This document shows positions 7,982 through 64,000 of a stretch of DNA of 64,000 nucleotides, in pieces. The notes under the pieces were generated by a model. That model saw nothing but the letters and a program-made list of their open reading frames with translations, was not told the origin of the DNA and made no database searches. Source of the stretch: Actinoallomurus purpureus (GTDB taxonomy: Bacteria; Actinomycetota; Actinomycetes; Streptosporangiales; Streptosporangiaceae); NCBI RefSeq assembly GCF_024055795.1, contig NZ_JAMXMY010000007.1:1-64000 (forward strand), given 5' to 3'. Position 1 is the stretch's first letter, and each line of letters begins with the position of its first letter. The position numbers and the translations under genes were made by a program.

Positions 7982-8072
7982 TCGCCGCCGGGCGGAATCA
8001 GGGTTTACCACGATGACGCACGCCCTTGTGAGCCTGCCATTGTGGGGCCCGGAGACAGGGAGGTGAAAAGTC

Positions 8073-11593: not shown

Positions 11594-11620
11594 GCGAACC
11601 GGCGCTCTGACGGGGGCATA

Positions 11621-12217
11621 GTGAGCACGACGATCTTCGCCGTCCGGCACGGCGAGACGGTCTGGCACGGTGAGAGCCGCTACGCGGGAAGCAGCGACGT
11701 CGAGCTGACCGAGAACGGCCGTGCGCAGGCCGAGCGCCTCGGCGCCTGGGCGGCCGGAGCCGGGATCGACGCGATCCGGGTCTCACCGCTGAGCCGAGCC
11801 CGGCTCACCGCCGCCCCCGCCGCCGACGCCCTCGGCCTGACACCCACCATCGAGCCTCGCCTGCGGGAAATGCACTTCGGCGTCGCCGAGGGCCGGCGGC
11901 TCGCCGAGCTACCGGTCCGGCAGGCCGTCGCGTTCCGCGCGGACCCGGTCGCCGGGGCGTTCCCGGGCGCCGAGGATCCGCGTGCCGCCGCCGCACGCGG
12001 CGTGGCGGCCCTGCGGGCGGCGGCCGAGCGCCACGACGGGCGGCGCATCCTCGTCGTGTCCCACAGCACGCTCCTGCGCCTGGCCCTGTGCGAGCTGCTC
12101 GGCATCCCGCTGTCCCGGTACCGCGTGGTCTTCCCGACCCTGCCCAACTGCGCGCCCGCCGAACTCCGCCTCGACGGCCCCGACACCGCCCTGCTCACCT
12201 ACAACGTGCCGATCTGA
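11621..12217 (+). CDS. histidine phosphatase (phosphoglycerate mutase superfamily)
   Basis: 198 residues. The phospho-acceptor motif FAVRHGETVWHGE is at the N-terminus, the second catalytic His is in VVSHSTLLRL, and SPLSRARLTA supplies the phosphate-pocket Arg. The family includes fructose-bisphosphatases, alpha-ribazole phosphatases and broad-specificity phosphatases; the substrate cannot be assigned. GTG start 27 bp after the GMC gene, so probably the last gene of that transcript. Confidence 0.85.
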   Translation: MSTTIFAVRHGETVWHGESRYAGSSDVELTENGRAQAERLGAWAAGAGIDAIRVSPLSRARLTAAPAADALGLTPTIEPRLREMHFGVAEGRRLAELPVRQAVAFRADPVAGAFPGAEDPRAAAARGVAALRAAAERHDGRRILVVSHSTLLRLALCELLGIPLSRYRVVFPTLPNCAPAELRLDGPDTALLTYNVPI

Positions 12218-12248
12218 ATGTCCTACCGCGCGCGCTCCGCGCCGGAAC

Positions 12249-13253
12249 TCAGTGCGGGATACCACTGATGATCTTCTGAGCGCCCTTGCGGTTCAGCAGC
12301 GCGCCGACGTACGCGCCGAGTTCGAAGGCGCGGTCGGGGGTGTCCCACTCCTGGGCGTAGACGAACTGGCCGCCGTCTCGGCTGAACACCATGCCGAGCA
12401 GGGACAGCTGCCCATCGGCTGTCGTCGAGCAGTGCCCGGCGATCGGTGAGTTGCAGTGTCCCTGCAGGGCGTGCAGCATCGTCCGCTCGGCGGTGATGTG
12501 CACGCGAGTCTCCTCGTGGTCGATCATTCGCAGCAGCTCGCGGATCCCCTCGTCCGTCTCGCGACACTGCACACCGATGACGCCCGCGCCGACGGCGGGG
12601 CACATCTGATCCATTTCCAGGATCTGGCCGACGCGGTCGGCGACTCCGCCGCAAACCAGTCCGATACGGGCCAGGACGAGCGCCTCGATCCGGTCGTTCT
12701 CGTCGAGCTTGGCGAGGCGGGGAATGACGTTGCCTCGGAAGCGCTCTACTTGGAGGTCGGGTCGAACGCGCAGGATCTGCGCCTTGCGCCTCACGGCCGA
12801 AGTGCCGATCACGGTCCCGGGCGGGAGGTCGTCCAGGCACGCGTAGGGCGATCCCGCACGCCACACGACGCAGTCTCGAACGTCCTCGCGCGGCAGGTAG
12901 GCCCCGAACATGAGGCCTTGCGGGAGAGGGACGTCTCCGGGGACGTCCTTCATCGCGTGCATGGCCATGTCGATCTGGCCGGTGACCAACGCCGCGTCGA
13001 GCTCCTTCATGAAGGCGCCCTTGCCGCCGAGTTGGGCGAGGTCACCTTTCCAGGCGTCGCCGGAGGTCTTGATCGGGACGATCTCGATCTGCAGATCGGG
13101 CAGAACTCCACGGATCGCGTCGACGACCCTGCCCGCGTAGGCCATCGCCAGCTGGGAAGTGCGGCTACCCAGGCGCAGTTTGCGAGGAGGGAGGGACCGG
13201 GCGAAGTAGGTCGCGGCGACGGCGGCCTGGGATTCGGTCGAGACGATCGTCAT
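12249..13253 (-). CDS. hemC: hydroxymethylbilane synthase (porphobilinogen deaminase), stand-alone copy
   Basis: 334 residues. It polymerises four porphobilinogens into hydroxymethylbilane in the tetrapyrrole pathway. Visible hallmarks: LRLGSRTSQLAMAYA, the catalytic-Asp segment AMHAMKDVPGDVPLPQGL, GTSAVRRKAQ, FRGNVIPRLAKL, and the dipyrromethane-cofactor Cys in ALQGHCNSPIAGHC. The start at 13253 is conventional but lacks a strong ribosome site; about 20 residues precede the usual family start. No other heme genes (hemA, hemB, hemD) lie nearby, whereas the housekeeping actinobacterial hemC sits in a hemA-hemC-hemD operon, so this is probably a second, divergent copy. Divergent from the phosphotransferase-fold gene. 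Confidence 0.9.
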   Translation of the reverse strand: MTIVSTESQAAVAATYFARSLPPRKLRLGSRTSQLAMAYAGRVVDAIRGVLPDLQIEIVPIKTSGDAWKGDLAQLGGKGAFMKELDAALVTGQIDMAMHAMKDVPGDVPLPQGLMFGAYLPREDVRDCVVWRAGSPYACLDDLPPGTVIGTSAVRRKAQILRVRPDLQVERFRGNVIPRLAKLDENDRIEALVLARIGLVCGGVADRVGQILEMDQMCPAVGAGVIGVQCRETDEGIRELLRMIDHEETRVHITAERTMLHALQGHCNSPIAGHCSTTADGQLSLLGMVFSRDGGQFVYAQEWDTPDRAFELGAYVGALLNRKGAQKIISGIPH

Positions 13254-13358
13254 CGTGGTGCGGCGTTCCTGTTCGTGGACGAGAGAGCTGACGGAGATTC
13301 TGGCGCTCCCGCCCGGCTGGATGTGACACTCCGGCCGTCGCTGCGCCAACCTTGCGAC

Positions 13359-14255
13359 ATGACGCCCCTCCCCGGCGGCTATTCAGCGCCCGAGATGCAG
13401 CATGTCCTCGAAGTCGCCTGTGTAAGAGCCGGCCTCGACTGCACGGACGCGGTCCTGCTCCGCGGTCACACTAACGCGGTGATCCGGCTGATCCGCGATC
13501 CGGTGGTGGTAAAAATCGCCCGCCGAGGCACACGGCCTTCTGAGGTCGCCAGGACGGTGCAGTTCGTTCGGTGGCTCATGGAGCAAGACTTCCCGACCGT
13601 ACCGCTGTATCCGGTCTCTGATCAGCCAGTCGTTGTCGACGGTCATGCGGTGACGTTCTGGACGTTTCTGCCGCAACCCGATCACCCGGTCTCAGCTGCG
13701 CAGATCGCGGCACCGCTACACGCTCTGCATTCGCTGCCAACGCCGCCGTTTCCGATCCGGCGCGTGGACAACGTTGCCGTGATACGAAGGTCTCTGGCCG
13801 CGACCCAGTCACTTCCCTCTCATGCACTCCGGTACCTGGCCAATCGACTTGATCGGCTCGAGGCCGCCCTCGCAACCGTACGGTTCAACTTGCCGGAAGG
13901 GATCTTGCAGGGAGATCCGCAGCACCGGAACGCACTGCATCTCGGCGACCGCGCCGTTCTGTGCGACTGGGACACCTTCGTGTGGGGGCATCCGGAATGG
14001 GATCTCGTGACGATCGAGATCCATTGCCGGAGGTTCGGCTACGGCAGGCAGCACTACCAGGCTTTTTCTGACGCCTACGGCTATGACGTCACCGCCTGGG
14101 ACGGCTATCCCGTCTTGCGTGATCTACGAGAGATTCGGATGATCGCCACCAATGCCCGCAAGGTCATACACGCACCGCAGACCGCCCCTGAAGTGACTCG
14201 GCGCATCGAAGGGCTGGCGTCCGAGAACACCGCGCTGGAGTGGCAGATCCTGTGA
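13359..14255 (+). CDS. phosphotransferase-fold protein (APH/choline kinase family)
   Basis: 298 residues of the aminoglycoside-phosphotransferase/kinase fold: ATP-anchoring Lys in PVVVKIAR, hinge segment FWTFLPQ, the catalytic loop QGDPQHRNAL (HGD variant with Gln for His) and the metal-binding Asp in VLCDWDTFVWG followed by PEWDLVTIE. The family phosphorylates small molecules (aminoglycosides, choline, homoserine, macrolides); a resistance role cannot be inferred from sequence. Its 3' end overlaps the antisense Nudix reading frame. Codon use is slightly less GC-rich than the neighbours. Confidence 0.8.
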   Translation: MTPLPGGYSAPEMQHVLEVACVRAGLDCTDAVLLRGHTNAVIRLIRDPVVVKIARRGTRPSEVARTVQFVRWLMEQDFPTVPLYPVSDQPVVVDGHAVTFWTFLPQPDHPVSAAQIAAPLHALHSLPTPPFPIRRVDNVAVIRRSLAATQSLPSHALRYLANRLDRLEAALATVRFNLPEGILQGDPQHRNALHLGDRAVLCDWDTFVWGHPEWDLVTIEIHCRRFGYGRQHYQAFSDAYGYDVTAWDGYPVLRDLREIRMIATNARKVIHAPQTAPEVTRRIEGLASENTALEWQIL

Positions 14256-14824
14256 TGCCGCGATACCCCCGCGGATAAGGGCGCCTGCGGCGTACGAGCA
14301 CGTATCCAGGCGACGTACGACGATGCCCGGACCGATCCGCGGCAGCGGCGGTCGAGAGCATGATCGAGCAGATCCGGGCGGCGTTCCGCCTCGTCAAGCT
14401 CAGGCTCGCCGACGTGGTCAGCGCCGTGCGCGACGTAGACGTCTTGTGGAGCATCGGCCGAGCCGATCATCGGCTGGTATGAGAGCAGGAACTTGACGTT
14501 CCGGGGACGCCAGCCGGTCTCCTCCTCCGCCTCCCTGGCCGCCGCAGCCGTACCATCCTCGCCGGGGTCGACATAACCGCCGGGGACTTCCCAATCCCAT
14601 CGGTTGACGATGAATCGGTGCCGCCAGATCAGAAGGATGTTCTCCCCAGCGTCGTCGAGCACGATCGTCATCGCGCATCGCGGCATCCGGAACACGTACT
14701 GGTCGAACGTGATCCCGTCGGGTAGCTCCACGCTGGCAATCGACAGACGAATGTGCGGGTTATCGTCGACCAGGCGCTCACCGTGGATCGTCCAGCGGGT
14801 CCGCTCGGAGGAGGACGCAGTCAC
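14105..14824 (-). CDS. Nudix hydrolase, C-terminus doubtful
   Basis: The Nudix box is intact (GGYVDPGEDGTAAAAREAEEETGW, shown here by its ends G...E...REAEEETGW) at about residues 79-102, with the upstream beta-strands ILLIWRHRFIVNRWDWEVPGG typical of ADP-ribose/NDP-sugar pyrophosphatases. After GEPELDEAERR (about residue 147) the frame no longer looks like the family: the expected tail is replaced by Arg/Ser-rich sequence that runs 151 bp antisense into the phosphotransferase gene. Probably a frameshift or decayed 3' end near 14370-14390; all three minus frames stay open there, so the true end is uncertain. GTG start. Confidence 0.7.
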   Translation of the reverse strand: MTASSSERTRWTIHGERLVDDNPHIRLSIASVELPDGITFDQYVFRMPRCAMTIVLDDAGENILLIWRHRFIVNRWDWEVPGGYVDPGEDGTAAAAREAEEETGWRPRNVKFLLSYQPMIGSADAPQDVYVAHGADHVGEPELDEAERRPDLLDHALDRRCRGSVRASSYVAWIRARTPQAPLSAGVSRHHRICHSSAVFSDASPSMRRVTSGAVCGACMTLRALVAIIRISRRSRKTG

Positions 14825-15048
14825 AGGGCGACGCTACCCGGCGCCCGGGGCGAGAGCCGCTTGCGGCGATCCTCACGACGGGGGCACGACTGTTCGCACG
14901 TGGTCTGGCCGGTTCGCCGCCCGAAGCGCCTCGTATTCGTCAACGGCGCCAGAGGTAGGCAGGATCTTCAGCGATCTTCACCTGTTCAGGCGCGTTCCGG
15001 GGGAAGGCCCAGACACGGCCTGCGGTGCTGGTGGCCGTCACGGTGGTC

Positions 15049-15978
15049 TCATCCAGAGCGACCTCGGCGAACGGAGTCATCATCGGCTGGTGAGTCGGTG
15101 GAAGCGATGCTGTCTGACGGGATGGCGCGGCCGGTCAACTTGGCCGAGTACCGCCACAGCCGTTCAGCCTCGACATCGTCGTGTGGATACGGCTCGCTTT
15201 CGCGGCAGTCGGTGCAGTAGGCGCCGCCCTGGGTGGCTGCGGTAGCGGCCCATAGTGGCGTCGCGGCGCCTTGTTCCGGAGTGCGGAACAGGCCCGGCGC
15301 TGGTTCACCGTCGGTGCCCAGCCATCCGGCTTCGGTCATCTCAGCGATCGTCAGATGCCGCTGCAGTGGCGTACGGATATAGCCCGGGCTCGCGGAGAAT
15401 GCCCGCACGCCGTGCGCCGCCCCGAGCCGGTCGAGATGGTGGGCGAACAGAATGTTGGCCAGTTTGGACTGCCCGTACGCGGCCCACTTGTGGTAGCCGT
15501 CGGTGAAGTGGACGTCGTGCCAGCGGATCCGATCCTCGGGCGAGCGTCCCGAGGCCACCGCGACGACCCTTGCGGCCGACGCCCGCGTCAGCGCCGGCCA
15601 CAGGCCGCAGGTCAAAGCGAAATGACCGAGGTGGTTGACGGCGAACTGCGCCTCCCAGCCAGGCCCCACACGCGTCTTGGGGCACGCCATGATCGCGGCA
15701 CTGGTGATGAGGAAGTCGAGGGCGCGATGACGCCGCAGGTAGCTCGTGGCGAAATCGTCGACCGAGCTGAGATCGCCCAGATCCATCTCGACGGTCTCGG
15801 CCGTCGCGCCGAGGTTGCGGCGCGCGACGTCCGGCCGGCGAGCCGGCACGATTACTTGTGCACCGGCGCGGTTGAGCGCCCGGGTGATGGCCAGACCCAC
15901 CCCCGAATAGCCGCCGGTAACGACGGCAGTGTGGTCGGTCAGATCGATTCCGTGGAGGACTTCGTCGGCGGTGTACAT
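15049..15978 (-). CDS. short-chain dehydrogenase/reductase
   Basis: 309 residues of classical/extended SDR fold: NAD(P)-binding TGGYSGVG (about 22-29), Asp in MDLGDLSS, the strand-4 segment ITSAAIM in place of NNAG, catalytic Ser in VAVASG, and the YxxxK motif YGQSK. Resembles oxidoreductases of the WW-domain/retinol-dehydrogenase-like group. It is expressed from the MerR-type promoter at 15986-16016, with the -10 only 7 bp from the ATG, so the message is probably leaderless or nearly so. The C-terminal ~40 residues are less conserved. Confidence 0.85.
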   Translation of the reverse strand: MYTADEVLHGIDLTDHTAVVTGGYSGVGLAITRALNRAGAQVIVPARRPDVARRNLGATAETVEMDLGDLSSVDDFATSYLRRHRALDFLITSAAIMACPKTRVGPGWEAQFAVNHLGHFALTCGLWPALTRASAARVVAVASGRSPEDRIRWHDVHFTDGYHKWAAYGQSKLANILFAHHLDRLGAAHGVRAFSASPGYIRTPLQRHLTIAEMTEAGWLGTDGEPAPGLFRTPEQGAATPLWAATAATQGGAYCTDCRESEPYPHDDVEAERLWRYSAKLTGRAIPSDSIASTDSPADDDSVRRGRSG

Positions 15979-15985
15979 GACGGGA

Positions 15986-16016
15986 ACGCTAGGAGCTCGA
16001 CCGAGGTCTAGGTCAA
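15986..16016 (-). promoter_or_regulatory. MerR-type promoter/operator of the SDR gene
   Basis: On the minus strand: -35 TTGACC (16016-16011), a 19-bp spacer, then -10 TAGCGT (15991-15986). A dyad GACC-TC-GGTC sits in the spacer. Long 19-bp spacers with a central dyad are the hallmark of MerR-activated promoters, and the divergent gene encodes a MerR protein. Confidence 0.75.
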
Positions 16017-16033
16017 ATGGCTATCGTCGGCGC

Positions 16034-16444
16034 ATGAGACCCACGGGTGTCGGTATCGGCGAAGTCGCACGGAGAACCGGCCTGAGCGTGCACACGCTGC
16101 GCCTCTACGAGCGCGTCGGGATATTCGCCGGTCCGGTACAGCGCGACGCGGCGGGGCGGCGGGTATACAGCGAATGGGACATCGCCTGGCTCGGCAACTG
16201 CGTACTCTTCCGTGCCTCGGGCATGCCACTGGCCGCCCTCGCCGAACTGGCCCGGCTTGTCAGCGAAGGCCCGGGCAACGAGGCTGACCGCCTTGACCTG
16301 CTCCGTGCTCACCGGCAACGAGTCCGCGAGCAGATGACTCAGCTCACCGACTGTCTCATGCTGATCGACGCAAAGGTCGCCGGCTACGAGAAACACCTAG
16401 CCGCAGGCGCAGGTGGCGACCCCTGGCAGCCCAATCGTCCCTGA
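16034..16444 (+). CDS. MerR-family transcriptional regulator
   Basis: 136 residues. The N-terminal winged HTH reads IGEVARRTGLSVHTLRLYERVGIF, followed by the wing (RDAAGRRVYSEWDIAWL) and a dimerisation helix up to about 125. No SoxR-type four-Cys cluster is present, so an Fe-S sensor is excluded; the effector is probably a small organic molecule. It is divergent from the SDR gene it most likely controls, and its own promoter overlaps the same 55-bp control region. Confidence 0.9.
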   Translation: MRPTGVGIGEVARRTGLSVHTLRLYERVGIFAGPVQRDAAGRRVYSEWDIAWLGNCVLFRASGMPLAALAELARLVSEGPGNEADRLDLLRAHRQRVREQMTQLTDCLMLIDAKVAGYEKHLAAGAGGDPWQPNRP

Positions 16445-46648: not shown

Positions 46649-48214
46649 TCAGCCCGTGAAGGCCTTGAAGATGTTGGTGAACTCGTACGTGCTCTGGCTG
46701 ATGCCGCTGCAGGTCGGCGAGACGGAGCCGTTCGGGCAGCCGCCGTTGTCGCGGCCGACGGACCAGAAGCCGATGGAGCCGACGTGGTTGCTCTGGGCGT
46801 AGCTCAGCAGCTGGCCGGCGACGGCCTGGGTGGTGGTCGGACCGGTGTCGTTCTTTCCGATCATCGGGGTCAGGCCCAGCATCCGCTTGAGCTCGGCGTC
46901 GCTCTTGCCGGTCCAGATCTGCTTCATCTGGCCGAGCGTCGCGTTGGCCGCCGAGATCAGGGCGTCACCCCACGAGCCGGAGTAGCCGAAGTCCATGAGC
47001 ATCGGGTTGACGGTGACGTTCAGGCCGCGGGAGGCGGCGTCCTGAAGGATCTGGACCGAGAACGGGTCGACGCCGTAGTCCTGGGCCTGCACCCGGAGCG
47101 TGTACGTGACCGTGGTCCCGCGCTCGCTCTGGAGCTGCTTGAGCGCGGTGTTGACCTGCGCCACCGGGATCGACGCCTCCACGTCCACGTCGATGTGGTT
47201 GCTGCCGACCGCGTCGAGCGCCTTCTTGTAGGCGGCGAGCAGCGCGGACGAGCTTCCGCAGCTGTTCTCCAGGTACGGCCCGAGCGCGCCGCCGGTCGCC
47301 ACGGTGACGTCGCCGCCGACGCCCTTGAGGTCATTGACCTCCCCGATGACACGGGAGTCGCCCAGCGCGATCGTGCCGCCCCACGACGGGTTGCAGCCGG
47401 TGCTGTCCCCGAGGGCGAAGGCCAGCGTGAAGTGCTTCTGGCCGGTGGCCGTGGCAACGTCCTTCAGCGTGGGGGTGGCCATCGTGATGTCGACGTAGGG
47501 CGAGAACACGCCGCTGCCCCCGCCGCCGCTGCTGCTGTCGGTGGTGGCGCTGACCGAGGCGCTGAAGGCCGAGAGATTCCCGGCGGCGTCCTTGGCCCGG
47601 ACCTTGAAGGTGTACGACGTCGAGGCGCTCAGCCCGGAGACCGTGGCGCTCGTCCCCGAGACCGTCGTGGCCAGGGACGAACCCTGGTACACCTCATACC
47701 CGGTCACGCCGACGTTGTCGGTGGAGGCCGTCCACGACAACGACACGCTCGACGACGTGTGACCCGTCACCGCCAGGCCGGCGGGCGTGCTCGGCGCCTG
47801 GGTGTCGGAGCCGCCCCCGCCGCCCCCGCACGCGGCCCCGTTCAGCGTGCAGCCGGTCGGCGTGCCGCTCCCCGAGGCCACGAACCCGAACGTCACCGAG
47901 GCTCCCGCCGCGATCGAGGCGTTGTAGTCCCGGTTCTTGAACGTGTAGTGCGACCCCGACTGCGTCAGCAACGCGTCCCAGTACGTGCCCACCGACGACC
48001 CCGACGGCAGGTCGAACGCCACCGTCCACCCGCTGATCGCCGACGAGCCGTTGTTCGTGACCGTGAACTGCGCCTGATAGCCGCTCCCCCAATCCGACGT
48101 CTTGGCGAACGTCGCGGTGTTCGCCGCCGCGTACGCCGATACCGCGGGCAGTACGACGGCCAGGGGAAGTAGCAGCATCCCGACGATCAGGGACGCGATC
48201 CTGGATCTCTTCAA
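46649..48214 (-). CDS. secreted GH18 chitinase with CBM2 and FN3 modules
   Basis: 521 residues. Signal peptide (RIASLIVGMLLLPLAVVLPAVSAYAA); cellulose/chitin-binding CBM2 domain (about 33-125); Gly linker; fibronectin type III (about 140-225); Gly/Ser linker; GH18 catalytic domain (about 235-521) with HIDVDVEASIPV matching the DxDxE catalytic motif. TTG 48214 is chosen because GAGAGG precedes it and the signal peptide begins there. The second chitinase gene is directly upstream on the same strand (71-bp gap), so they probably share a transcript. Confidence 0.88.
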   Translation of the reverse strand: MKRSRIASLIVGMLLLPLAVVLPAVSAYAAANTATFAKTSDWGSGYQAQFTVTNNGSSAISGWTVAFDLPSGSSVGTYWDALLTQSGSHYTFKNRDYNASIAAGASVTFGFVASGSGTPTGCTLNGAACGGGGGGSDTQAPSTPAGLAVTGHTSSSVSLSWTASTDNVGVTGYEVYQGSSLATTVSGTSATVSGLSASTSYTFKVRAKDAAGNLSAFSASVSATTDSSSGGGGSGVFSPYVDITMATPTLKDVATATGQKHFTLAFALGDSTGCNPSWGGTIALGDSRVIGEVNDLKGVGGDVTVATGGALGPYLENSCGSSSALLAAYKKALDAVGSNHIDVDVEASIPVAQVNTALKQLQSERGTTVTYTLRVQAQDYGVDPFSVQILQDAASRGLNVTVNPMLMDFGYSGSWGDALISAANATLGQMKQIWTGKSDAELKRMLGLTPMIGKNDTGPTTTQAVAGQLLSYAQSNHVGSIGFWSVGRDNGGCPNGSVSPTCSGISQSTYEFTNIFKAFTG

Positions 48215-48285: not shown

Positions 48286-49902
48286 TCAACCGGTGAACTG
48301 GCCGATGATCTTGGCGAAGTCGTACGGCTGCTGGGTGACGCTGCTGCACTTGCCGTCCGCCCAGCCGGTGGTGCCGGTGCACTGCCGGTCCCGGTTCAGC
48401 GACCAGAACGACAGCCGGCCGAGGTGGTGCTGCTGCGCGTAGCCGAGCAGGGTGCGGAAGGTGTCCTGCGTGAACAGCTCGCTCGGCTGGTCGGTGTGGC
48501 CGTTCATCAGGATCAGGCCCGTCCGGGCGTACACGGTGGCGGCGGACAGGTCGGGGCGCAGCGTGACGAGCTGGCCGTGTGCGGCCTCCATGACCTTCTG
48601 CACGTCGGCGGCCATGGACGCGGCCGGACCCCCGTAGTCGAACGCCATCACGGCGTACAGGTCGATGTCGGCGCCGTTGTCCTTGGCCCGCTGGATCTCG
48701 GCCTTGTCCAGGTCGCTGAGGCCGACGGTCGTGACCGGCATCGTGAGGGAGACCTCGAGCCTCCGCCCGGCCGCGGCCGCGTTCTGCTTGAGGATCTTGA
48801 TGGCCTGGAAGCGTCGCGTCTCGCCCGAGGCATCGCCGAGGTCGTCGCCTTCGATGTCGAAGTCGACGTGGGTGAGCGTGTACTTGTCGATCACCTGCTG
48901 GTACGCCTGCGCCAGTGAGGAGGCGTCGGAGCAGGCCGCGCCGAGTTCGACCCCGTTGTAGCCGCCGAAGGAGACCGCGACGTCGCCGCCCGCCCCCCGT
49001 ACCGCGTCGACCTGCGCCTTGGCGGCCGTGTCCGCGGACACCTTCTGCGCGGCGTCGCCGTCCCAGGTCGGGGTGCAGCCTCCGCCGTTCGGCGCGAGCA
49101 CGAAGGCGAGGACCAGCGAGTTCACGCCGCTCCCGGAGACGATCGCGGAGATCGGCTGGGGGTCGTTGTCGAGCGGCATGAAGTACGGCGCCGCCCGCAG
49201 GCCCCCGGACGGCGTGGTTCCGCCGCCGTCGGTGGTGGCGCTCACCGAGGCGCTGAAGGCCGACGAATTCCCGGCCGCGTCCTTGGCCCGCACCGTGAAG
49301 GAGTACGACGTCGAGGCGGCCAGACCCGAGACCGTGGCGCTCGTCCCCGAGACCGTCGTGGCCAGGGACGAACCTTGATACACCTCATAGCCGGTCACGC
49401 CGACGTTGTCGGTGGAGGCCGTCCACGACAACGACACGCTCGACGACGTGTGACCCGTCACCGTCAACCCGGTCGGCGTGCTCGGCGCCTGCGTGTCCGA
49501 GCCGCCGCCCCCGCCGTCGCAGGACCCACCGTTCAGCGTGCAGCCGGTCGGCGTGCCGCTCCCCGAGGCCACGAACCCGAAGACCACCGAGGCGCCCGCC
49601 GCGATCGAGCCGTTGTAGTCCCGGTTCTTGAACACGTAATGCGACCCCGACTGGGTCTCCAGCGCGTCCCAGTACGTACCGACCGACGATCCCGACGGCA
49701 GGTCGAACGCCACCGTCCAGCCGTTGACCGCCGACGAGCCGTCATTCTTGATCGTGAACTGTCCCTGATAGCCGCTCCCCCAATCCGACGTCTTCGCGAA
49801 CGTCGCGGTGAGGGAGCCGGCGGCGTGGGCGGGTCCGGTCAGGACGCCGAGCAGGAGGAGGCAGGTGGCGAGGATGGTCAGGGCACGCGGGCGAACACGC
49901 AC
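48286..49902 (-). CDS. secreted GH18 chitinase with CBM2 and FN3 modules (paralogue)
   Basis: 538 residues. Signal peptide (PRALTILATCLLLLGVLTGPAHA); CBM2 and FN3 modules nearly identical to those of the downstream chitinase; catalytic GH18 domain with LTHVDFDIEGDDLG (DxDxE intact). GTG 49902 sits 4 nt from AAGGAGG. Its catalytic domain is otherwise quite different from the neighbour's, so the modules spread more recently than the catalytic halves diverged. A 15-bp perfect AT-rich palindrome lies 168 bp upstream. Confidence 0.88.
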   Translation of the reverse strand: MRVRPRALTILATCLLLLGVLTGPAHAAGSLTATFAKTSDWGSGYQGQFTIKNDGSSAVNGWTVAFDLPSGSSVGTYWDALETQSGSHYVFKNRDYNGSIAAGASVVFGFVASGSGTPTGCTLNGGSCDGGGGGSDTQAPSTPTGLTVTGHTSSSVSLSWTASTDNVGVTGYEVYQGSSLATTVSGTSATVSGLAASTSYSFTVRAKDAAGNSSAFSASVSATTDGGGTTPSGGLRAAPYFMPLDNDPQPISAIVSGSGVNSLVLAFVLAPNGGGCTPTWDGDAAQKVSADTAAKAQVDAVRGAGGDVAVSFGGYNGVELGAACSDASSLAQAYQQVIDKYTLTHVDFDIEGDDLGDASGETRRFQAIKILKQNAAAAGRRLEVSLTMPVTTVGLSDLDKAEIQRAKDNGADIDLYAVMAFDYGGPAASMAADVQKVMEAAHGQLVTLRPDLSAATVYARTGLILMNGHTDQPSELFTQDTFRTLLGYAQQHHLGRLSFWSLNRDRQCTGTTGWADGKCSSVTQQPYDFAKIIGQFTG

Positions 49903-54547: not shown

Positions 54548-56431
54548 ATGAGGCCGGTGACCAATCATGGGGCGGGTGAGGCGTTCGCGCCGATCGCCGA
54601 TTACGGGTTCCTGTCGGACACGGAGACCACCGCGCTGGTGGCCCCGAGCGGCAACATCGAGTGGATGTGCCTGCCGCGCGTGGACTCCCCGAGCGTGTTC
54701 GGCTCGCTACTCGATCGCGACGCCGGGTACTTCCGCGTCGGGCCCGCCGGCGTCGAGGTGCCCGCCGCCCGCCGCTACATCCCCGGCACGATGGTGCTGG
54801 AGACCACTTGGTGGACCCCCGGCGGCTGGCTCGTCGTCCTCGACGCCCTGCTCATGGGCCCCTGGCATCACGAGGACCAGCGGTCGCACACCCACCGCCG
54901 CGCTCCGACCGACTACGACGCCGACCACGTGCTGCTCCGGATGATCCGCTGCGTGAACGGCCAGTCGCAGGTGCGCCTCGACTGCATGCCGATCTTCGAC
55001 TACGGCCGGGATGCCGCCCGGTGGGAGCACACCGGCGCCGGCTACCACGAGGCCGTTGCCAGCGGAAACGGCCTAGAGTTGCGCCTCACCAGCGACCTGA
55101 ACATCGGGTTCGAGGGCTCCCTCGCCACCGCCCGTACGCTCCTCAAGGAGGGCGAGACCCGGTTCGTCGCCCTGTCCTGGAGCGAGCACCGGCCGCCGCA
55201 GTCGCACGACGAGGCCCACGAGCGGCTGACCTGGACCGTCCACCACTGGCAGCACTGGCTCGACCGCGGCCGCTTCCCCGACCACCCCTGGCGGGCGCAC
55301 CTGCAGCGCAGCGCCCTCACCCTCAAAGGCCTGACGTACGCGCCGACGGGCGCGGTCGCGGCGGCGGCGACCACCTCCCTGCCCGAGACACCGGGCGGCG
55401 ACCGCAACTGGGACTACCGCTACACCTGGATCCGCGACTCGACGATGGCCCTGTGGGCCTTCTACACGCTCGGGTTCGACTGGGAGGCCAACGACTTCTT
55501 CCACTTCATCACCGACGTGGCCGAGGCCGCCGGCGGCCACCTGCAGATCATGTACGGCGTCGACGGCCGCGCCGAACTGGAGGAGTCCACGCTCGACCAC
55601 CTCCACGGATACGACGGGGCACGTCCCGTGCGCATCGGCAACGGCGCGTACGTCCAGGAGCAGCACGACGTCTGGGGCGCGATCATCGGCTCCATCTACC
55701 TGTACGTCCGCAAGCGCGACCGGCTCGACGACCGGCTCTGGGCGATAATCGTCAAGCAGGTCGAGGCCGCCCTCGCCAACTGGCGCAGCCCCGACCGCGG
55801 CATGTGGGAGGTGCGCGGCGAGCCGCAGCACTTCACCTCGTCGAAGCTCTTCTGCTGGATCGCGGCGCACCGCGGCGCCCAGCTCGCCCACATCCGCGGC
55901 GACGCCGAGCGGGCGGAGCGCTGGCAGCAGGCCGCCGACGAGATCCACGCCGACGTCCTCGAGAACGCCGTCGACGAGCGCGGAGTCTTCGTGCAGCACT
56001 ACGGCACCAAGGCGCTCGACGCGTCGGTGCTGCTGATCCCCATGCTCGGCTTCCTCCCGCCGGACGACAAACGGGTCCGCGAGACGGTCTTCGCCATCGC
56101 CGACGAGCTCACCCAGGACGACCTCGTGCTGCGCTACCGCGCCTCGGAGACGGACGACGGCTTCGAGTCGGAGGAGGGGACCTTCACGATCTGCTCGTTC
56201 TGGCTGGTCTCCTCACTGGTCATGATCGGTGAACTGGACCGTGCCAAAGCACTGTGCGAGAAACTGCTCTCCTACGCCAGCTCCCTGCAGCTGTACGCCG
56301 AGGAGATCGATGCGCACAACGGCCGGCACCTGGGCAACTTCCCGCAGGCGTTCACCCACCTGGCCCTGATCAACGCGGTGATGCACGTCATCCGTGCCGA
56401 GCAGCAGGAGCGCGAGACGCCGCTCATCTGA
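54548..56431 (+). CDS. GH15-family trehalase
   Basis: 627 residues of GH15 glucoamylase/trehalase fold: N-terminal beta-sandwich ([40 protein letters not shown]), then the (alpha/alpha)6 barrel with the general-acid region [19 protein letters not shown] and the second acid in [13 protein letters not shown]. Closest to actinobacterial trehalases (Rv2402-like), which hydrolyse trehalose. ATG 54548; an in-frame GTG two codons upstream is possible. No signal peptide. Confidence 0.85.
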
Positions 56432-56474: not shown

Positions 56475-56610
56475 ACGCCCGCCGGTCGCGGCCGCCGCCA
56501 GTGACGCCCGTCCGCGGCGAGCGGAACCGGCACGGATTCGATCGGACCCGAATTCTCGAACATAACAAGCGGAGCAAACATTTAGAAAGGGTGTAGTTGC
56601 GGCCAGAAGC

Positions 56611-56712
56611 GGGCATTGACCCCAGGCCACTGCAAAACCTACGTTTCGTTTCCCGGCCCCGCCAGGCCCCGGGAGAACCCCGGTGTCGGTTTCCCCGGCA
56701 CCGGGCCTCACC
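56611..56712. repeat. imperfect ~100-bp direct repeat, copy 1
   Basis: Starts with GGGCATTGACC and keeps collinear words AACCT-CG, TTCGT, TTCCCGG, CGCC, CCGG, CCCGGTG, CCGGG with copy 2 (58468-58571), about 70% identical by hand alignment. It ends 5 bp before the stop codon of the PrnB-like gene (on the minus strand). Both copies could fold into two short stem-loops. Confidence 0.65.
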
Positions 56713-56717
56713 CTGGA

Positions 56718-57851
56718 TCAGCCAGATGCCCCGAGCGGGCGCCGCGTCTGTTTCCGCGGATTCTCGCGCTCAGACAACGACCCGGCGAACAGATCGATGT
56801 TGTGCCGGGTGAGGTCGAGGATCTCTCGGAGAAGATCGACGGTGCCGCCGCCGCTTCCGGCCTCATAGAGGCCTACCGCGCCGTTGTAGGCCTTACGGGC
56901 GTAGGTCAGGTGCTTGCCCCGGAAGAGCACCAGAGTGCGCAGTGTCGCCGCCAGCGCCCCTGCGGAGTCACGCAGTACGGTGGGCGTGGTCTCGATGGAG
57001 CGGTACCCGGCCAGAGCTCTGCTGACCTTCGTCACCGCCGAGGGCGCCCGCTCCCAGGCGGGCAGATGTACCCGCAGGTGCGGGAGCGCGTACGGTGCCG
57101 CGTCCCGGCGGAACTCGTCGAACTCCTCCGAGCCGTGGTCGGACGCCCAGACCACGAGGTCCACCAGGAACAGCGGAACCTGTGAGCCGGCGGGCCCCGC
57201 ATAGGTGGCGCCACCGACCTGGATGTCCTCGAAATACGGGCGCAGCTCCCTTCCGAAGAAGCTCGGGTCGATCTTCCGCGCGACGTCCCTCATCGCCACG
57301 TCGAACGAACCGATCTTCTCCGCCAGTTCTGTGAGCAGCACCGGAAACTCGGCCTGTCCGGGATCGGAGACCGACAGCCGCCGGCACACCTCCACCGCGC
57401 CGGACAACTGGGTAAGGGAGACCTGGGTGACGCCGATCAGGCAGTCCTCCTGCGGATCGCCGGTGTACATACGCCGGCGAGGCCCGCTCGGATTGAACTC
57501 GCTGTAGTGGTGCACGGTGTCGCGCGGGACCATCCGCGTCCGCCGACCCAGCTCGACGAGGACCTCCTCGAGCCCGGGCACGGCGTCCACCGGTTGGACG
57601 GCATGGCGTTTCAGTGAGCCGAGGAACCCACCGAGGTCCCGCATCGCAGCGACGCAGTCCTCCTCAGAGAACGCGGAGACGCCGCCGGAAGGAAGAATTC
57701 CGGCCAGAGCCCGGGTGATCGCCCCGACGTCCTTACGGGCGTTCATCTCGGGCAGTCGCAGGCAGACGCCGTCGGCGGACAATGGATCCAAGGCTCTGAT
57801 CCGGGCGGGATCGCATATCACTTCACCGTGAACAACCTGCACAGAAGGCAT
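56718..57851 (-). CDS. PrnB-family (monodechloroaminopyrrolnitrin synthase-like) heme enzyme
   Basis: 377 residues resembling PrnB along most of its length: DPLSADGVCLRLPEMNARKDV, MRDLGGFLGSLKRHAVQPVDAVPGLEEVLVELG, MYTGDPQEDCLIGVTQVS, FFGRELRPYFEDIQVGG and FRGKHLTYARKAYN with YEAGSGGG. PrnB is a heme protein of the indoleamine/tryptophan dioxygenase superfamily that rearranges (7-chloro)tryptophan into an aminophenylpyrrole. The His in GKHLTYARK is the likely axial heme ligand. No halogenase, PrnD-like oxygenase or flavin reductase gene adjoins. ATG 57851. No signal peptide. The comparison uses a remembered PrnB sequence. Confidence 0.8.
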   Translation of the reverse strand: MPSVQVVHGEVICDPARIRALDPLSADGVCLRLPEMNARKDVGAITRALAGILPSGGVSAFSEEDCVAAMRDLGGFLGSLKRHAVQPVDAVPGLEEVLVELGRRTRMVPRDTVHHYSEFNPSGPRRRMYTGDPQEDCLIGVTQVSLTQLSGAVEVCRRLSVSDPGQAEFPVLLTELAEKIGSFDVAMRDVARKIDPSFFGRELRPYFEDIQVGGATYAGPAGSQVPLFLVDLVVWASDHGSEEFDEFRRDAAPYALPHLRVHLPAWERAPSAVTKVSRALAGYRSIETTPTVLRDSAGALAATLRTLVLFRGKHLTYARKAYNGAVGLYEAGSGGGTVDLLREILDLTRHNIDLFAGSLSERENPRKQTRRPLGASG

Positions 57852-58565
57852 GGGGGAACTTCTCCTCAGTGCGTCACCAGCCGGGACACGTTTACTAAGG
57901 CACCGTCTCGCTCACACCTTCCGCCCTCTCCGCGGCGTATGACTTACCAGCGAAATGGACGGAATCCACATGCTCAAACGGACACCGAAAGCCTTTTCTC
58001 AGGCATGAACCAGCCCGAGTAATCACGCAGCGTCAACATCCGCCAGAGTGCACAATACTGCTATTTCGGACTATGGTAGAGGGGGCGAACGAAGATCGTC
58101 AAGACGTGTAGATCACGGAACCCCCGCTCGCCTACGGACGCCACACGGGCACATTTACGCAGGTCAACGCGGAAATTTCAGCGGATCGGTCGCAGCCGCA
58201 CCGAAGCGGCGCCGCCGGCGTTCCTCGTGTGCTCCGTGTGACCGCGGGGACCGAATCGACGGTTCGCTCATGCCCCGGCGCCCTGGTCGGCCGCGCCGAC
58301 CAGGGCGAAGCGTGCTTACTCCACCGATGCCCGAGCCGGCGGCCCGTACAAATACGGCGGGGAATCTCGAACCGGCCGCCCGACCTCTCCGTTCATCGCT
58401 GTTCGCGGCCCGCCGGAGGCACACCGTGAATACGTCCTCATGGCGGCGGAACACGCGACCCTGACGTGGGCATTGACCGCAGACCGCGACACAACCTGCG
58501 TTCGTCTTCCCGGTCTCGCCGAGCTCCGGAGCGAAACCCGGTGCCCGCTCATTCCGGTACCGGGT
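57852..58565. other. 714-bp low-coding region upstream of the PrnB-like gene
   Basis: No convincing gene on either strand: short Arg-rich ORFs only. The stretch at 57870-58080 is clearly lower in GC than the chromosome average. It contains the hairpin at 58279-58307 and the second direct repeat at its right end. Confidence 0.6.
58279..58307. terminator. 12-bp perfect hairpin in the PrnB-SecDF gap
   Basis: CGCCCTGGTCGG / CCGACCAGGGCG with a 5-nt loop. It could stop secDF transcripts running past 58566 on the minus strand. Confidence 0.6.
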
Positions 58566-58571
58566 TCACAC
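58468..58571. repeat. imperfect ~100-bp direct repeat, copy 2
   Basis: Collinear with 56611-56712 (see copy 1). It overlaps the last codon and stop of secDF, so both copies sit at the 3' end of a minus-strand gene. Confidence 0.65.
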
Positions 58572-60761
58572 CTCGTACGGCTCGGGCCGAGGCGTGCCCG
58601 CCGGTCTCCGGCCCTCCAGTGCGAGGGTGATCGGCGTCGCCGTGAAGACGCTCGACCAGGTGCCGACGAGGATCCCCGCCAGAAGCGCCACCGCGAAGTC
58701 GGTCAGCGAGTCGCCGCCGAGCAGGGCCAGCGCCGCCAGAATGAAGATCGCTCCCATTCCCGTGTTGACCGTACGCGGCACGGTCTGCAGCGCCGCGCGG
58801 TTCGCGATCCCGGCGAGCGGGGCCTTCGGGTCCTCCCTCCACAGCTCCCGTACGCGGTCGAACACCACCACCGAGTCGTTCACGGAGTAGCCGATGATCG
58901 TCAGCAGCGCCGCGAGGAACACCCCGTCGACGGACCTGCCCGACCAGGCGAACAGACCGGTGACGATGACGACGTCGTGCAGCATCGCCAGCACGGCGCC
59001 CGCGCCGAACGTCCAGCGGAACCGGATCGCCAGGTAGACCAGCTGCCCGCCGAGGGCGGCGCCCAGCGCGATCACCGCCTTGTCCCGCAGCTCACTGCCG
59101 AGACTCGGCCCGACCCTCTCGTCGCGCTGCTTGGTGACGGTACCGCCGTGGCGCTGAAGGGCTTCGTGGATCCGGTGCTCCTGGTCGTCGGTGAGGTCGC
59201 CGGTACGCACGGAGACGTCGTTCCCGCCGGACGCCTGGACGACGGCGTGCGGGAACCCCGCGTTCGACACCGCCCGGCGCGCGGTGTCCGCGTCGACGGA
59301 CCTGCTCGTGGAGTACTCGACGAGCCGGCCGCCGGTGAACTCCACCCCTAGGTTCAGGCCGCGTACGGCGATCCCGGTGACCGCCAGCAGCACCGCGACG
59401 GCGGAGACCGACAGCCAGATACGGCGGCGTCCCATCACGTCCGGATCGCGCCGCTCGATCCAGCGCCGTACCCGCCCGCTCCCGGCCAGCCCCGTCAGCG
59501 ACGGCCGGGCGGCGACCGCCCGGCGGCCGAGCGCCCACTCGGCGAGCACCCGCGTCACCAGCAGCGCCGACACGAACGAGGCCAGCACACCGATCGACAG
59601 GGTGATGCCGAAACCGCGGACCGACCCCGAGGCCAGGAAGAACAGCAGCCCCGCGGCGAGCAGGGTGGTCATGTTCGAATCCGCGATCGCCGACCAGGCC
59701 TTACGGAAGCCCCGGGTCAGCGCGGACCGCACCCCCTGGCGCGGCATCGCGGCGTGCTCCTCGCGCGCCCGCTCGAACACCAGCACGTTCGCGTCGACCG
59801 CCATGCCGATGGCCAGCACGAACCCGGCCAGCCCCGGCAGGGTGAGGGTGGCGCCCATGGCGCTCAGCGCCGCATAGGAGATCAGCGCGTACGAGCCGAG
59901 CGCCAGGGCGGCCACCACGCCCGCCAAGCGGTACATCCAGATCACGAACAGCGCGGTGAGCACGACCCCGATCACCGCGGCCCGGGCACTGGCGTCGATC
60001 GCCTCCGCCCCGAGGGTCGGCCCGACCGTACGCTGCTCGACGACGTCGACCGGCACCGGCAAAGCACCGCCCTGGATCAGCGCGGCGAGGTTCTTGGCGT
60101 CCTTCTCGCCGAAGTCACCGGTGATCTGCGTCGATCCGCCGGTGATGCCGGTACCACAACCGACGCCCGGGTCCACCTGCGGCGCCGAGATCACCCTGTC
60201 GTCGAGGAGGATGGCGACCCTGCGCGCCGGGTCGCCGGGCGCGGCGCAGGCCGCCTTCGCGGTCAGCCGCTGCCATGCCGCGTCATGATGGAAGTCGACC
60301 GAGACGAACCAGCCGCGCAGGCTCTGCGGGTCGAACCCGGCCTGCGCCGTGCCGACGTCCTTCCCGGTCAGCGCGACGGGGCCTACCTGGAGCGGCTGTC
60401 CCTTCTCGTCGGGCATGGCGCGGCCGCCGGTGGGGACCACGGAATGGAAGGACAACTGCGCGGTACGGCCGATGACCCCGGTGGCCTGCCGGGCGTCCTG
60501 CACGCCGGGCAGTTCGACGATGATCCGCTTGTCGCCGGAGCGGGTGAGCGCCGGCTCGGAGACCCCGAGGGCGTCGATCCGCCTGCGCAGCACTTCGACG
60601 GCGCGGTCGGTGGACCGCCGATCGGCCTTCGCGTACGGGGAGTCGTGGGTCTGCAGCACGATCTGAGTGCCTCCGCGCAGGTCGAGCCCCAGGCGCGGAG
60701 ACGTGAACAGGGTGATGAACAGTGAGGCGGCGATCACGGCGAACGCCAGAAGCGCTCGCAC
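58566..60761 (-). CDS. fused SecDF protein-export subunit
   Basis: 731 residues: TM1 and the LGLDLRGGTQIVLQT motif, the P1 periplasmic domain with GVSEPALTRSGDKRIIVELPG, the SecD transmembrane block (VLAIGMAVDANVLVFERAREE), then the SecF half beginning with LGVEFTGGRLVEYSTS and the block SVNDSVVVFDRVRE. SecDF uses the proton-motive force to assist Sec export. Fused SecDF in a genome of this type is probably an addition to separate secD and secF genes. The start is uncertain: GTG 60761 lacks a ribosome site, while GGAGG stands before an in-frame ATT 24 nt upstream. Confidence 0.9.
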   Translation of the reverse strand: MRALLAFAVIAASLFITLFTSPRLGLDLRGGTQIVLQTHDSPYAKADRRSTDRAVEVLRRRIDALGVSEPALTRSGDKRIIVELPGVQDARQATGVIGRTAQLSFHSVVPTGGRAMPDEKGQPLQVGPVALTGKDVGTAQAGFDPQSLRGWFVSVDFHHDAAWQRLTAKAACAAPGDPARRVAILLDDRVISAPQVDPGVGCGTGITGGSTQITGDFGEKDAKNLAALIQGGALPVPVDVVEQRTVGPTLGAEAIDASARAAVIGVVLTALFVIWMYRLAGVVAALALGSYALISYAALSAMGATLTLPGLAGFVLAIGMAVDANVLVFERAREEHAAMPRQGVRSALTRGFRKAWSAIADSNMTTLLAAGLLFFLASGSVRGFGITLSIGVLASFVSALLVTRVLAEWALGRRAVAARPSLTGLAGSGRVRRWIERRDPDVMGRRRIWLSVSAVAVLLAVTGIAVRGLNLGVEFTGGRLVEYSTSRSVDADTARRAVSNAGFPHAVVQASGGNDVSVRTGDLTDDQEHRIHEALQRHGGTVTKQRDERVGPSLGSELRDKAVIALGAALGGQLVYLAIRFRWTFGAGAVLAMLHDVVIVTGLFAWSGRSVDGVFLAALLTIIGYSVNDSVVVFDRVRELWREDPKAPLAGIANRAALQTVPRTVNTGMGAIFILAALALLGGDSLTDFAVALLAGILVGTWSSVFTATPITLALEGRRPAGTPRPEPYEV

Positions 60762-61726: not shown

Positions 61727-61779
61727 AGGGCTTCTGGTGGGCGAGTGATCTAGACACTCCCTCGACTACCAGAAGCCCT
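61727..61779. repeat. long inverted repeat at the end of the large right-hand ORF
   Basis: AGGGCTTCTGGT (61727-61738) and ACCAGAAGCCCT (61768-61779), 12 bp perfect, with further inner pairing (GAGTG/CACTC) around TCTAGA. It overlaps the last codons (GFW-stop) of the right-hand ORF. Looks like an IS end or terminator. Confidence 0.65.
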
Positions 61780-64000
61780 CTTCCCTCTCCAGAGCCGACA
61801 CGCGATCCCCACCCAAACCGTCTGCTAACAGGCTCTTAAGCTCACGGTGGCCGGAGGGATAACCTGGGCCGTCATCAGCCCGCCCCGGCCTCAGGCCGAC
61901 AACGGCGATCGACACGCACGCCTTCTCACCGTTCTCATCCAGCGTGCTGTAGCTACTCTCCGCCCATTCGGCCCAAATCTGCCAGTCGGCGAACTCGGGA
62001 GGCAGACCATCCGCGGCATTTTGCGGATCGGGCCGGGAGCCGACCGCCGGTTCGCCGGCTGCGGTGGGATCACCCGCATGCTGGTCCGAGCGGTGTCCCG
62101 ATGGCGCGTCGGGGCGCACACGGCCCGGCGCCGGATCCGCGAAGCCGTGTCGGCCGGTGTCGTGTTCGATGGGGGTGTTCGTGTCGGGGGCTGTTATGCG
62201 GGCCTCGATCCGGACCCGGCCACGGCCGATGCTTGGATCGGCACGGATGTCGACGGGGACCTGTGTGCCGACGATCTGTGCCGCTGCGGGAAGATCGAAG
62301 TCAGCGAGCTTGGAGCGGACCTTGTCCAGGAAGACGTCCCGCACCACCTTGGCGATCCGGTGCTGCGGCGTCGCCCAGTTCGCAGCTGTGCCTGGACCGG
62401 CGCTGATGCGAAGGGCCGGTGCGGGGCGCCCGGCCCGCAAATCCCTTATGAGGGCCTCGGCGTACTGGCCGGCGAGGGATGGCACGTCGGTGCGAACTCC
62501 GTTGAACCGGACCTCCGCCACGTGGTCGGGTTCGAAATCCATCACGGCCGGAGCCGGGGGCGCCACCCGGTTTCCGGGGATCGGCAAGGGCACCTTCTCC
62601 GACCGGTAGCGGAACGGGCCGAGATCGCCCAGCACCGCCGAGTGCATCTCGGCAGCGAACGTCACACAGTTGTTGAGGAGCCACTGGTAAGGCTGGTTCT
62701 GCTTCGAGCGGGCGAAGTCGACGCCGCTCTGCATCTGCTCCACCGTTACCTGCTTCGGTGCCTCGATCCGTGGCACACTTTGGAAGTCCGGGCTGAACAC
62801 CGCGCCTGCTGAGGAACCGAACCACGGTACGTCTGCGGCGTTCGCCGCGCCGAACCCCATGGTGAAGACCCGGCCTCGATACCGGGCCGCTCCGCGCCCC
62901 GGCGTGCCCAGCGGAAGCCGGACACTCACCCACACATGGCCCTGGTCACTCATCCCGGCAAGAGGCCGGACCGTGATGGCGAACTCCACAACGGCGCCCT
63001 GGCGGTCCTGTATCCCCGACAGCGCGCGTTCCAGCTGCGCGATATCGTAACTCGCATCCGCCGGCACATTGAGCGGACGTGCGTCGGGCTCGCGACGGTC
63101 CATCACCCTCCGCACCGCGTCGGCCAACGCCGGCACATCGGTGAACACATCCCGCCCATGCCTGATCCGGTAAACATCCGCCAAGGTCAGCAACGACAGG
63201 GTGTCGTGCTCGATCCCAGACATCGGCTCGAATGCGTCAGTCCGCCCATCGCTCACGCGCTCAGCGACATCGTCCGCCAGCGCCGCCACGTCAGGGAAGT
63301 TCACGCCCATCAGCTGCTGGAACCCGACCGGCTCCGCGGACCATGCCGAAATGATCCCCGACAGGGCCTCTGGCCGGTCACGCACCTCATCCACCGACTC
63401 CGTCACCCGGCCCCCCTCACTGACCCGGGCCCGCAGCCTCCGGACGAGGTCCTTCACTTGCGCCGGTGACAGCGGCTGACGCCCCGGGCGTACACCACTG
63501 AGGTCCTGGCCTGACAGCAGAGCTGCGCGGGGCGGCACGTCGGTCGGCGGGACGGCACCCGCAGGCGACGTCGCCGTCGCGTTGGAGCTCGAAGTGCTCG
63601 GCGAAATCTGTTCCTGCGCATGTGGATCGTCTTCGTTCAGCACTACCACCGGCTGCGGTGGCATCGGCTCGATCTCAGCCGCCTGGTGCCGTTGGTCGGC
63701 CGCTTTGGCGAGCTCTTGTATAACGCGACCCTGGAGACGATAGATCGCCGCGCTTCGGTTGGATGGGCGGTCTTTAGAATCCAACCAGCGATCGATTGCG
63801 GCCAGGATGTTTTGTAGTCCCCGTTCGCTTCGGTGGAATCCGTCGGTGTCGCGGAGGCCGCCGTTCTTCCACAGGTCAAGCGCGAGGTCGACTTCCTTCA
63901 GCGCAGGTGAGCGCCCTCGGGTCGGCGACTGAAGAAACGGCAGGCGAGAAAGGGTTTCCCAGTCGTCGATGATGTCACCGTCGAACTCGCCGGCGCCACC
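61766..64000 (-). CDS. C-terminal part of a very large protein with permuted papain-like (His-Cys) domain
   Basis: Open in one frame from the window edge (64000) to TAG at 61766: more than 744 residues, 5' end outside. A mostly disordered Pro/Ser linker (about 120-180 in this part) precedes a helical region with TLSLLTLADVYRIRHGRDVF, then a domain with His first (GHVWVSVRLPLG, GRVFTMGFG) and Cys later (YQWLLNNCVTFAAEMHSAVLG), the order of circularly permuted NlpC/LRAT-like hydrolases. The end (EFADWQIWAEWAESSYSTLDENGEK) is acidic. Matches the style of giant actinomycete 'lonely Cys' and polymorphic-toxin proteins; toxin role is inference. Confidence 0.7.
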   Translation of the reverse strand, partial: GGAGEFDGDIIDDWETLSRLPFLQSPTRGRSPALKEVDLALDLWKNGGLRDTDGFHRSERGLQNILAAIDRWLDSKDRPSNRSAAIYRLQGRVIQELAKAADQRHQAAEIEPMPPQPVVVLNEDDPHAQEQISPSTSSSNATATSPAGAVPPTDVPPRAALLSGQDLSGVRPGRQPLSPAQVKDLVRRLRARVSEGGRVTESVDEVRDRPEALSGIISAWSAEPVGFQQLMGVNFPDVAALADDVAERVSDGRTDAFEPMSGIEHDTLSLLTLADVYRIRHGRDVFTDVPALADAVRRVMDRREPDARPLNVPADASYDIAQLERALSGIQDRQGAVVEFAITVRPLAGMSDQGHVWVSVRLPLGTPGRGAARYRGRVFTMGFGAANAADVPWFGSSAGAVFSPDFQSVPRIEAPKQVTVEQMQSGVDFARSKQNQPYQWLLNNCVTFAAEMHSAVLGDLGPFRYRSEKVPLPIPGNRVAPPAPAVMDFEPDHVAEVRFNGVRTDVPSLAGQYAEALIRDLRAGRPAPALRISAGPGTAANWATPQHRIAKVVRDVFLDKVRSKLADFDLPAAAQIVGTQVPVDIRADPSIGRGRVRIEARITAPDTNTPIEHDTGRHGFADPAPGRVRPDAPSGHRSDQHAGDPTAAGEPAVGSRPDPQNAADGLPPEFADWQIWAEWAESSYSTLDENGEKACVSIAVVGLRPGRADDGPGYPSGHRELKSLLADGLGGDRVSALEREEGFW

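Follow-up and report, generated by a model that had tools for sequence, protein, structure and literature searches.

The window analysed here is the whole 64,000-nucleotide stretch at positions 1 to 64,000 of contig NZ_JAMXMY010000007.1 of Actinoallomurus purpureus (assembly GCF_024055795.1), and its gene of interest, P0001, encodes a member of the PrnB family. To judge by its sequence, the gene is best read as a single horizontally acquired copy encoding a functional PrnB-type enzyme, a kind of enzyme that is already known, and we put at a little over one half (roughly 0.55) the probability that the protein performs PrnB-type rearrangement chemistry on a tryptophan. The genome (97.9% complete, 52 contigs) holds one PrnB copy, the sole further match being a 53-residue stretch with E=0.11.

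56718..57851, minus strand: PrnB-family heme enzyme gene (P0001), 377 amino acids, identified from the open reading frame (ORF) list, profile and homology searches, fold and alignment

Family, fold and active-site residues

A sequence-only reading had recognised a PrnB homologue here by eye, and this observation is confirmed. The PF08933 profile matches the protein with 97.4 bits (E=1e-27), above the curated cut-off of 27 bits, which places it inside the PrnB family. Using phmmer, it matches PrnB of Pseudomonas fluorescens (PfPrnB, structure 2v7i; monodechloroaminopyrrolnitrin synthase) with E=1.1e-55 and 35% identity over 332 aligned residues, and FbPrnB of a Flavobacteriales bacterium (9dfg) with E=1.3e-46 and 31% identity over 326 residues. 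PrnB structures rank first in a fold comparison of the predicted structure, a model built with eight sequences only, and the protein is predicted to share with PfPrnB the fold of the PrnB/indoleamine dioxygenase group. The four motifs quoted in the earlier reading are present, at residues 70-83, 91-101, 198-208 and 313-336.

The residue comparisons, the tree and the column counts were taken from one alignment of 30 rows. The histidine of GKHLTYARK, proposed earlier as the heme ligand, is His314 (codon 56910..56912, minus strand); it aligns to His313 of PrnB, which we take to be the heme ligand, and is invariant in 30/30 rows. Arg311 and Ser333 are the same in both solved PrnBs, and Tyr322 matches PfPrnB only, FbPrnB having Leu at this position. 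Ser333 aligns to Ser319 of FbPrnB, and the serine of the carboxylate-binding loop is kept. None of the 26 columns invariant across the other 24 PrnB-side rows is changed in the window protein. Compared with PfPrnB, it has Tyr116 for Val117, Phe119 for Trp and Asp231 for Glu; the first of these, a pocket position, is likewise Tyr in FbPrnB, with which the protein also shares Gly222, where the other rows of its clade (described below) have Ala. The remaining clade rows carry Ile, Leu or Val in place of Tyr317, which lies three residues after His314; L021 and L022 carry Tyr.

Gene start and signals

The frame begins with ATG, contains no internal stops and is complete. A simple gene finder places the start later, at 57644, but the full-length ATG start is preferred because all eight aligned rows share the N-terminal stretch D22-P-L-x-A-D27 unchanged. 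Two candidate signals precede the gene:

57862..57867, minus strand: GAGGAG, ribosome-binding-site-like, 10 bases 5' of the ATG, read from the sequence
58073..58102, minus strand: sigma-70-like promoter match TTGACG-18-TACCAT, 5' of the PrnB gene

The second is a match to consensus only, one being observed against 0.2 expected in 2301 bases. For the full gene, the G+C content at third codon positions (GC3) is 0.825, and 2 of the 44 predicted window genes have a lower value.

Relatives and their gene contexts

Homologues of P0001 were found in 1/8 genomes of the genus, counting its own genome as in all of these figures, and none was matched in the seven congeners. Matches occur in at least 9/297 genomes of the family (E 1e-3; four of them weak) and at least 7/394 of the class (1e-20), lower bounds that rest on a few scored candidates per genome (at most six for the family and four for the class). 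PF08933 is present in at least 2/396 genomes of the phylum, the second of which, G113, comes from a distant branch. Seven related loci were obtained from named genomes, and PLSDB supplied six plasmids (two from Streptomyces, three from Burkholderia and one from Azotobacter), among which those of Azotobacter and B. pyrrocinia show prn-type clusters. A pattern-based search found no relative among viral contigs.

In the tree, the window protein lies inside a 16-row actinobacterial clade (support 96/96) without joining any of its sub-branches; the PrnBs of prn clusters form a separate group (97/100), and, unlike the gene for PfPrnB, the window gene lies outside any prnABCD cluster. FbPrnB differs in coming from another lineage, and its place in the tree is unsure. 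The clade members found beside PhzS-like monooxygenase genes are 41-48% identical to the window protein; one example is a Streptomyces sp. NBC_01717 plasmid protein annotated as 'monodechloroaminopyrrolnitrin synthase PrnB family protein'. On actinomycetes the earlier reading was too strong, for others among them have such proteins too: Streptomyces, Kitasatospora, Glycomyces and Virgisporangium carry relatives within gene clusters, and Actinopolyspora also has them.

A flavin monooxygenase gene adjoins the PrnB gene in 11 of the 16 clade loci, with a 4-base overlap in eight, a 16-base overlap in one and gaps of 11 and 48 bases in two (our own gene calls). The one such monooxygenase that was tested matches PF01494, with best structures 2rgj/3c96 (PhzS); BLAST and the tree show the remainder to be related to it. 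L069 has only an 85-residue monooxygenase-like start next to its PrnB homologue, and no monooxygenase gene lies beside the homologue in the window, in two Actinopolyspora species (L004 and L005) or in L071. A ketosynthase gene is nearby in 8/16 loci (L003, L006-L009, L020, L029 and L066; called by Pfam on L006 and by similarity in the others). Some of the loci also share HpaB-like, DsbA-like, NmrA-like and Cupin_6/AraC genes (identified by Pfam on L008) as well as genes that by eye resemble major facilitator superfamily (MFS) transporters. Five clusters (L066-L068, L070 and L008) have, besides the PrnB homologue and monooxygenase, genes for an HpaB-like hydroxylase, an MFS-like transporter and a Cupin_6/AraC regulator and an NmrA-like gene, and no halogenase gene was seen in them.

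Three Glycomyces clusters (L006, L007 and L009), spanning about 6250-16250, contain the PrnB homologue, the PhzS-like monooxygenase, DoxX and ketosynthase genes, and add a RebH-like tryptophan halogenase, a flavin reductase, an antiporter, ketoacyl synthase (KAS) III and acyl-carrier-protein-like genes; from this gene content, they look like an undescribed pathway of a chlorinated phenylpyrrole-polyketide type. Because the three Glycomyces are closely related, as are the Streptomyces-like rows, the locus counts do not represent independent events. No paper on gene clusters of the actinobacterial PrnB clade was found among the matches listed in the open-licence PubMed Central (PMC) literature, nor, among those listed for marinoquinolines and phenylpyrroles, a gene-cluster paper with PrnB.

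A distant PF08933 branch was also seen, at L028:7965-10261 and L024:5536-7852, directly adjoining a gene for a pyridoxal-phosphate-dependent class V aminotransferase; this pairing occurs in 2/5 of the distant-branch loci fetched. The L028 member scores 525 bits, compared with 363 for Azotobacter PrnB, and its aminotransferase gene has a kynureninase C-terminal match slightly above cut-off. The gene content suggests a pair formed by a tryptophan dioxygenase and a kynureninase-like enzyme.

Expected chemistry

PMC11791213 describes PrnB as a histidine-ligated heme enzyme with the substrate amine ligated to the heme iron, which in cells converts 7-chlorotryptophan to monodechloroaminopyrrolnitrin and also accepts L- and D-tryptophan. 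Ser319 and Gly210-Gly211 of FbPrnB hold the substrate carboxylate, and its Tyr at the position of Val117 in PfPrnB narrows the pocket and affects the lie of tryptophan (PMC11791213). In PrnB, ligation of the amine shifts the spectrum to the red. Two further papers report a putative phenylpyrrole product of PrnB in a tryptophan-overproducing Corynebacterium glutamicum (PMC11112847) and 3-(2'-aminophenyl)pyrrole isolated from the marine gliding bacterium Rapidithrix thailandica (PMC2630848).

Since PrnB accepts tryptophan and works in cells, and an aminophenylpyrrole is known, the same compound, 3-(2'-aminophenyl)pyrrole, or its chloro form would be expected here by analogy. We propose that the window protein would bind heme b via His314, that the substrate amine would be ligated at the iron with the loop carrying Ser333 closing over the carboxylate, and that tryptophan would be oxidatively rearranged and decarboxylated to give 3-(2-aminophenyl)pyrrole. 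The cellular substrate is probably plain L-tryptophan, or chlorotryptophan if the halogenase on contig C21 (below) is co-expressed. The sequence-only reading had offered the use of unchlorinated tryptophan as new chemistry; this does not hold, as acceptance of L- and D-tryptophan (PMC11791213) and the compound itself (PMC2630848) are already on record.

Several observations weigh against this assignment. Purified PrnB is reported to be inactive in vitro (PMC11791213), and chemistry therefore cannot be inferred from family membership. The predicted model has a mean pLDDT (predicted local distance difference test) of only 64 and is weak in pocket stretches, with low confidence at residues 322-336, the loop with Ser333. 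In the phmmer alignment, Gly210-Gly211 of FbPrnB align to Gly222 and Ser223, so that one of the two carboxylate glycines is replaced, although this site is indecisive because PfPrnB has Ala and Val at the two positions. The flavin monooxygenase of the 11 clade loci is missing next to the window gene, which, unlike those loci, has no surrounding cluster; within the clade, no end branch is longer than that of the window protein (0.88). The protein also differs at 9 of the 75 columns on which all 15 other rows of the clade agree (L45I, G84A, W119F, R143Q, V194I, A200G, A222G, Y244F and W259L); corresponding counts are 11/77 for L071 and 0-4 for the remaining 14 rows, and Trp119 is retained by both solved PrnBs. 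These changes, W119F included, together with the long branch indicate that function may have shifted.

Such a shift could have led to a different indole oxidation, whether tryptophan hydroxylation, 2-oxindole formation or dioxygenation, as in other histidine-ligated heme aromatic oxygenases. We regard this as unlikely, though worth serious consideration: the long branch and the altered clade columns are as it would predict, but the heme-ligand and loop residues are those common to both solved PrnBs. A parallel is PdnC, a PrnB homologue in the paenidepsin cluster of Paenibacillus that is predicted in PMC13036774 to be a tryptophan hydroxylase, an assignment called speculative there. By its description, PdnC also belongs to a non-pyrrolnitrin setting, but it sits in a non-ribosomal peptide synthetase cluster.

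A heme tryptophan hydroxylase (Luz15/BifE) was considered as closest relative, as an actinomycete tryptophan enzyme, and was set apart by description only, BifE being placed with tryptophan-2,3-dioxygenases in the literature and Luz15 being mentioned in PMC13036774. Neither name is among the matches listed in the homology and fold searches, and no direct sequence comparison was made.

Halogenase and other pathway genes in the genome

The earlier description of the gene as having no pyrrolnitrin partners stands locally and in part genome-wide. Visual inspection of the ORF and gene lists shows no halogenase, PrnC/PrnD oxygenase or flavin reductase within 6 kb (a family search of the neighbours was not made), and at E 0.001 the genome searches for PF04820, PrnC-like and PrnD-like proteins gave no match on this contig (these genome-wide searches did not cover flavin reductases). 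Neither PrnC (best match 58 residues, 34%) nor full-length PrnD (best E=2.4e-9 over 102 residues, 35%) was found in the genome, and the pyrrolnitrin set of prnA, prnC and prnD with prnB was found neither at the window locus nor elsewhere in it. The description fails for the halogenase. The genome search that had been suggested for halogenase and PrnD recovered one full-length RebH/PrnA-class enzyme, C21:81843-83300 (550 bits with PF04820), followed by an antiporter and then a flavin reductase gene; two short further matches slightly above cut-off are a monooxygenase on C13 and one protein on C22. The C21 halogenase scores 833 bits against RebH, 825-831 against 6-halogenases such as Thal and 716 against PrnA, and because the scores for RebH (a 7-halogenase) and the Thal type are alike, they do not tell its chlorination site. 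With such a halogenase, antiporter and flavin reductase, the genome can probably make chlorotryptophan.

The window PrnB might then work in trans with the C21 genes in a split pathway to a chlorinated aminophenylpyrrole, which we judge to be quite unlikely. The halogenase is full-length and 64-66% identical to those beside the PrnB homologue in the three Glycomyces, with 52-55% for the flavin reductase and 32-35% for the antiporter, and the arrangement is similar in Actinopolyspora biskrensis, where halogenase and PrnB homologue lie about 0.5 Mb apart on what its length suggests is one contig. However, the sister species G398 has an 89% halogenase ortholog and a second at 65%, yet no PrnB match, so the C21 halogenase need not serve the window PrnB and the link is weak. 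A similar set of halogenase, reductase and antiporter-like protein also serves the biffamycin pathway (PMC13285481), and the similar RebH and 6-halogenase scores, like the missing PrnC and full-length PrnD, count against a split pathway as well. A search of 17 genomes that carry a PrnB homologue (14 from the clade and three from outside it, leaving out two Streptomyces plasmid hosts and the distant-branch genomes) showed no such halogenase at 1e-60 in 12 of them; it is present at 64-66% in four, and Virgisporangium has a partial match at 41%.

The C13 flavin monooxygenase, a 46-49% relative that lies in another context, scores 385 bits against 2rgj/3c96, where the tested PrnB-linked enzyme scores 320. 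As a lost partner it carries little weight: it groups with the three Glycomyces monooxygenases (98/98), but it matches these structures better than the PrnB-linked enzyme does, and its own neighbours are ATP-binding-cassette-transporter-like and thiamine-pyrophosphate-enzyme-like genes (named by eye). A broader proposal, which we offer as a long shot, is that the actinobacterial clade is an undescribed phenylpyrrole-forming family acting mostly on unchlorinated tryptophan together with a co-translated PhzS-like flavin monooxygenase, and that this monooxygenase or its reduced flavin may be what PrnB requires from the cell and lacks once purified; the window protein would be a stand-alone offshoot drawing its partner, and possibly chlorotryptophan, from C13 and C21.

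The locus and signs of insertion

The PrnB gene has a convergent gene downstream and a SecD/SecF-like gene upstream, and two copies of a direct repeat flank it:

54548..56431, plus strand: left neighbour, glucoamylase-like (glycoside hydrolase family 15 type), named by eye
56603..56672, plus strand: left copy of a 70-base direct repeat, found by sequence comparison
58460..58529, plus strand: right copy of the repeat, beside the right neighbour gene, 73% identical to the left copy
58566..60761, minus strand: right neighbour, SecD/SecF-like, named by eye

The window gene looks, from these comparisons, like an inserted copy. The convergent neighbours are 184 bp apart in G398 and 2134 bp apart here, the left neighbour being 92% identical. 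Behind the left neighbour gene, the sequence of the left repeat continues into a hairpin resembling CCGGTG...CACCGG, and the repeat stretch including the hairpin occurs once in G398, once in G402 and twice here, where the two copies flank the PrnB gene. Within the window the core motif is confined to these two sites, but as 9/100 shuffles also gave two matches, this count alone is not strong, and the 70-base repeat is more telling. Across the genus the region is variable, and the insertion comparison rests on one species (G398): in the congeners G402, G401, G396 and G397, the left neighbour is followed by other genes, and gene calling over the 10 kb taken gave nothing SecDF-like. Gain here and loss in the sister species are both possible, gain being favoured because none of the seven congeners was matched.

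Directly downstream of the window gene there is no monooxygenase but the convergent gene and 286 bp without a remnant. A hidden partner was sought in the two intergenic stretches by tblastn with 420 proteins from neighbours in related loci and in the own genome, and discarded, the best E-value of 8e-4 per query being at chance level; Rfam gave one weak plant-microRNA match there (25.6 bits, cut-off 77.5). We consider it improbable that the gene is a relict in the course of being lost, having arrived without its partners and ceased to be of use: it stands alone, is unmatched in the seven other genomes of the genus, has more conserved-column change than every clade row but L071 and has no partner remnant adjoining, but its frame is intact with a start signal, it departs at 0/26 PrnB-side invariant columns, and the two Actinopolyspora species, also without the monooxygenase, keep their copy in a shared neighbourhood.

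Elsewhere in the window, a very large open frame adjoins the SecDF-like gene at 61766-63784 and continues past the window end into L039:3-6197 (GC3 0.796 for the window part). Two tandem, similar secreted genes at 46649-48178 and 48286-49902, chitinase-like with cellulose-binding and fibronectin-like parts (by eye), fall in one similarity cluster.

Significance

Taken as a whole, the earlier interpretation of the window gene is partly supported, and the uncharacterised actinobacterial clade is of more interest than the window protein alone. The relatives whose genes overlap a monooxygenase gene, together with stand-alone ones such as the window copy, form a natural comparison set for what PrnB chemistry requires, and the clade relatives point to possible phenylpyrrole-type clusters in actinomycetes.
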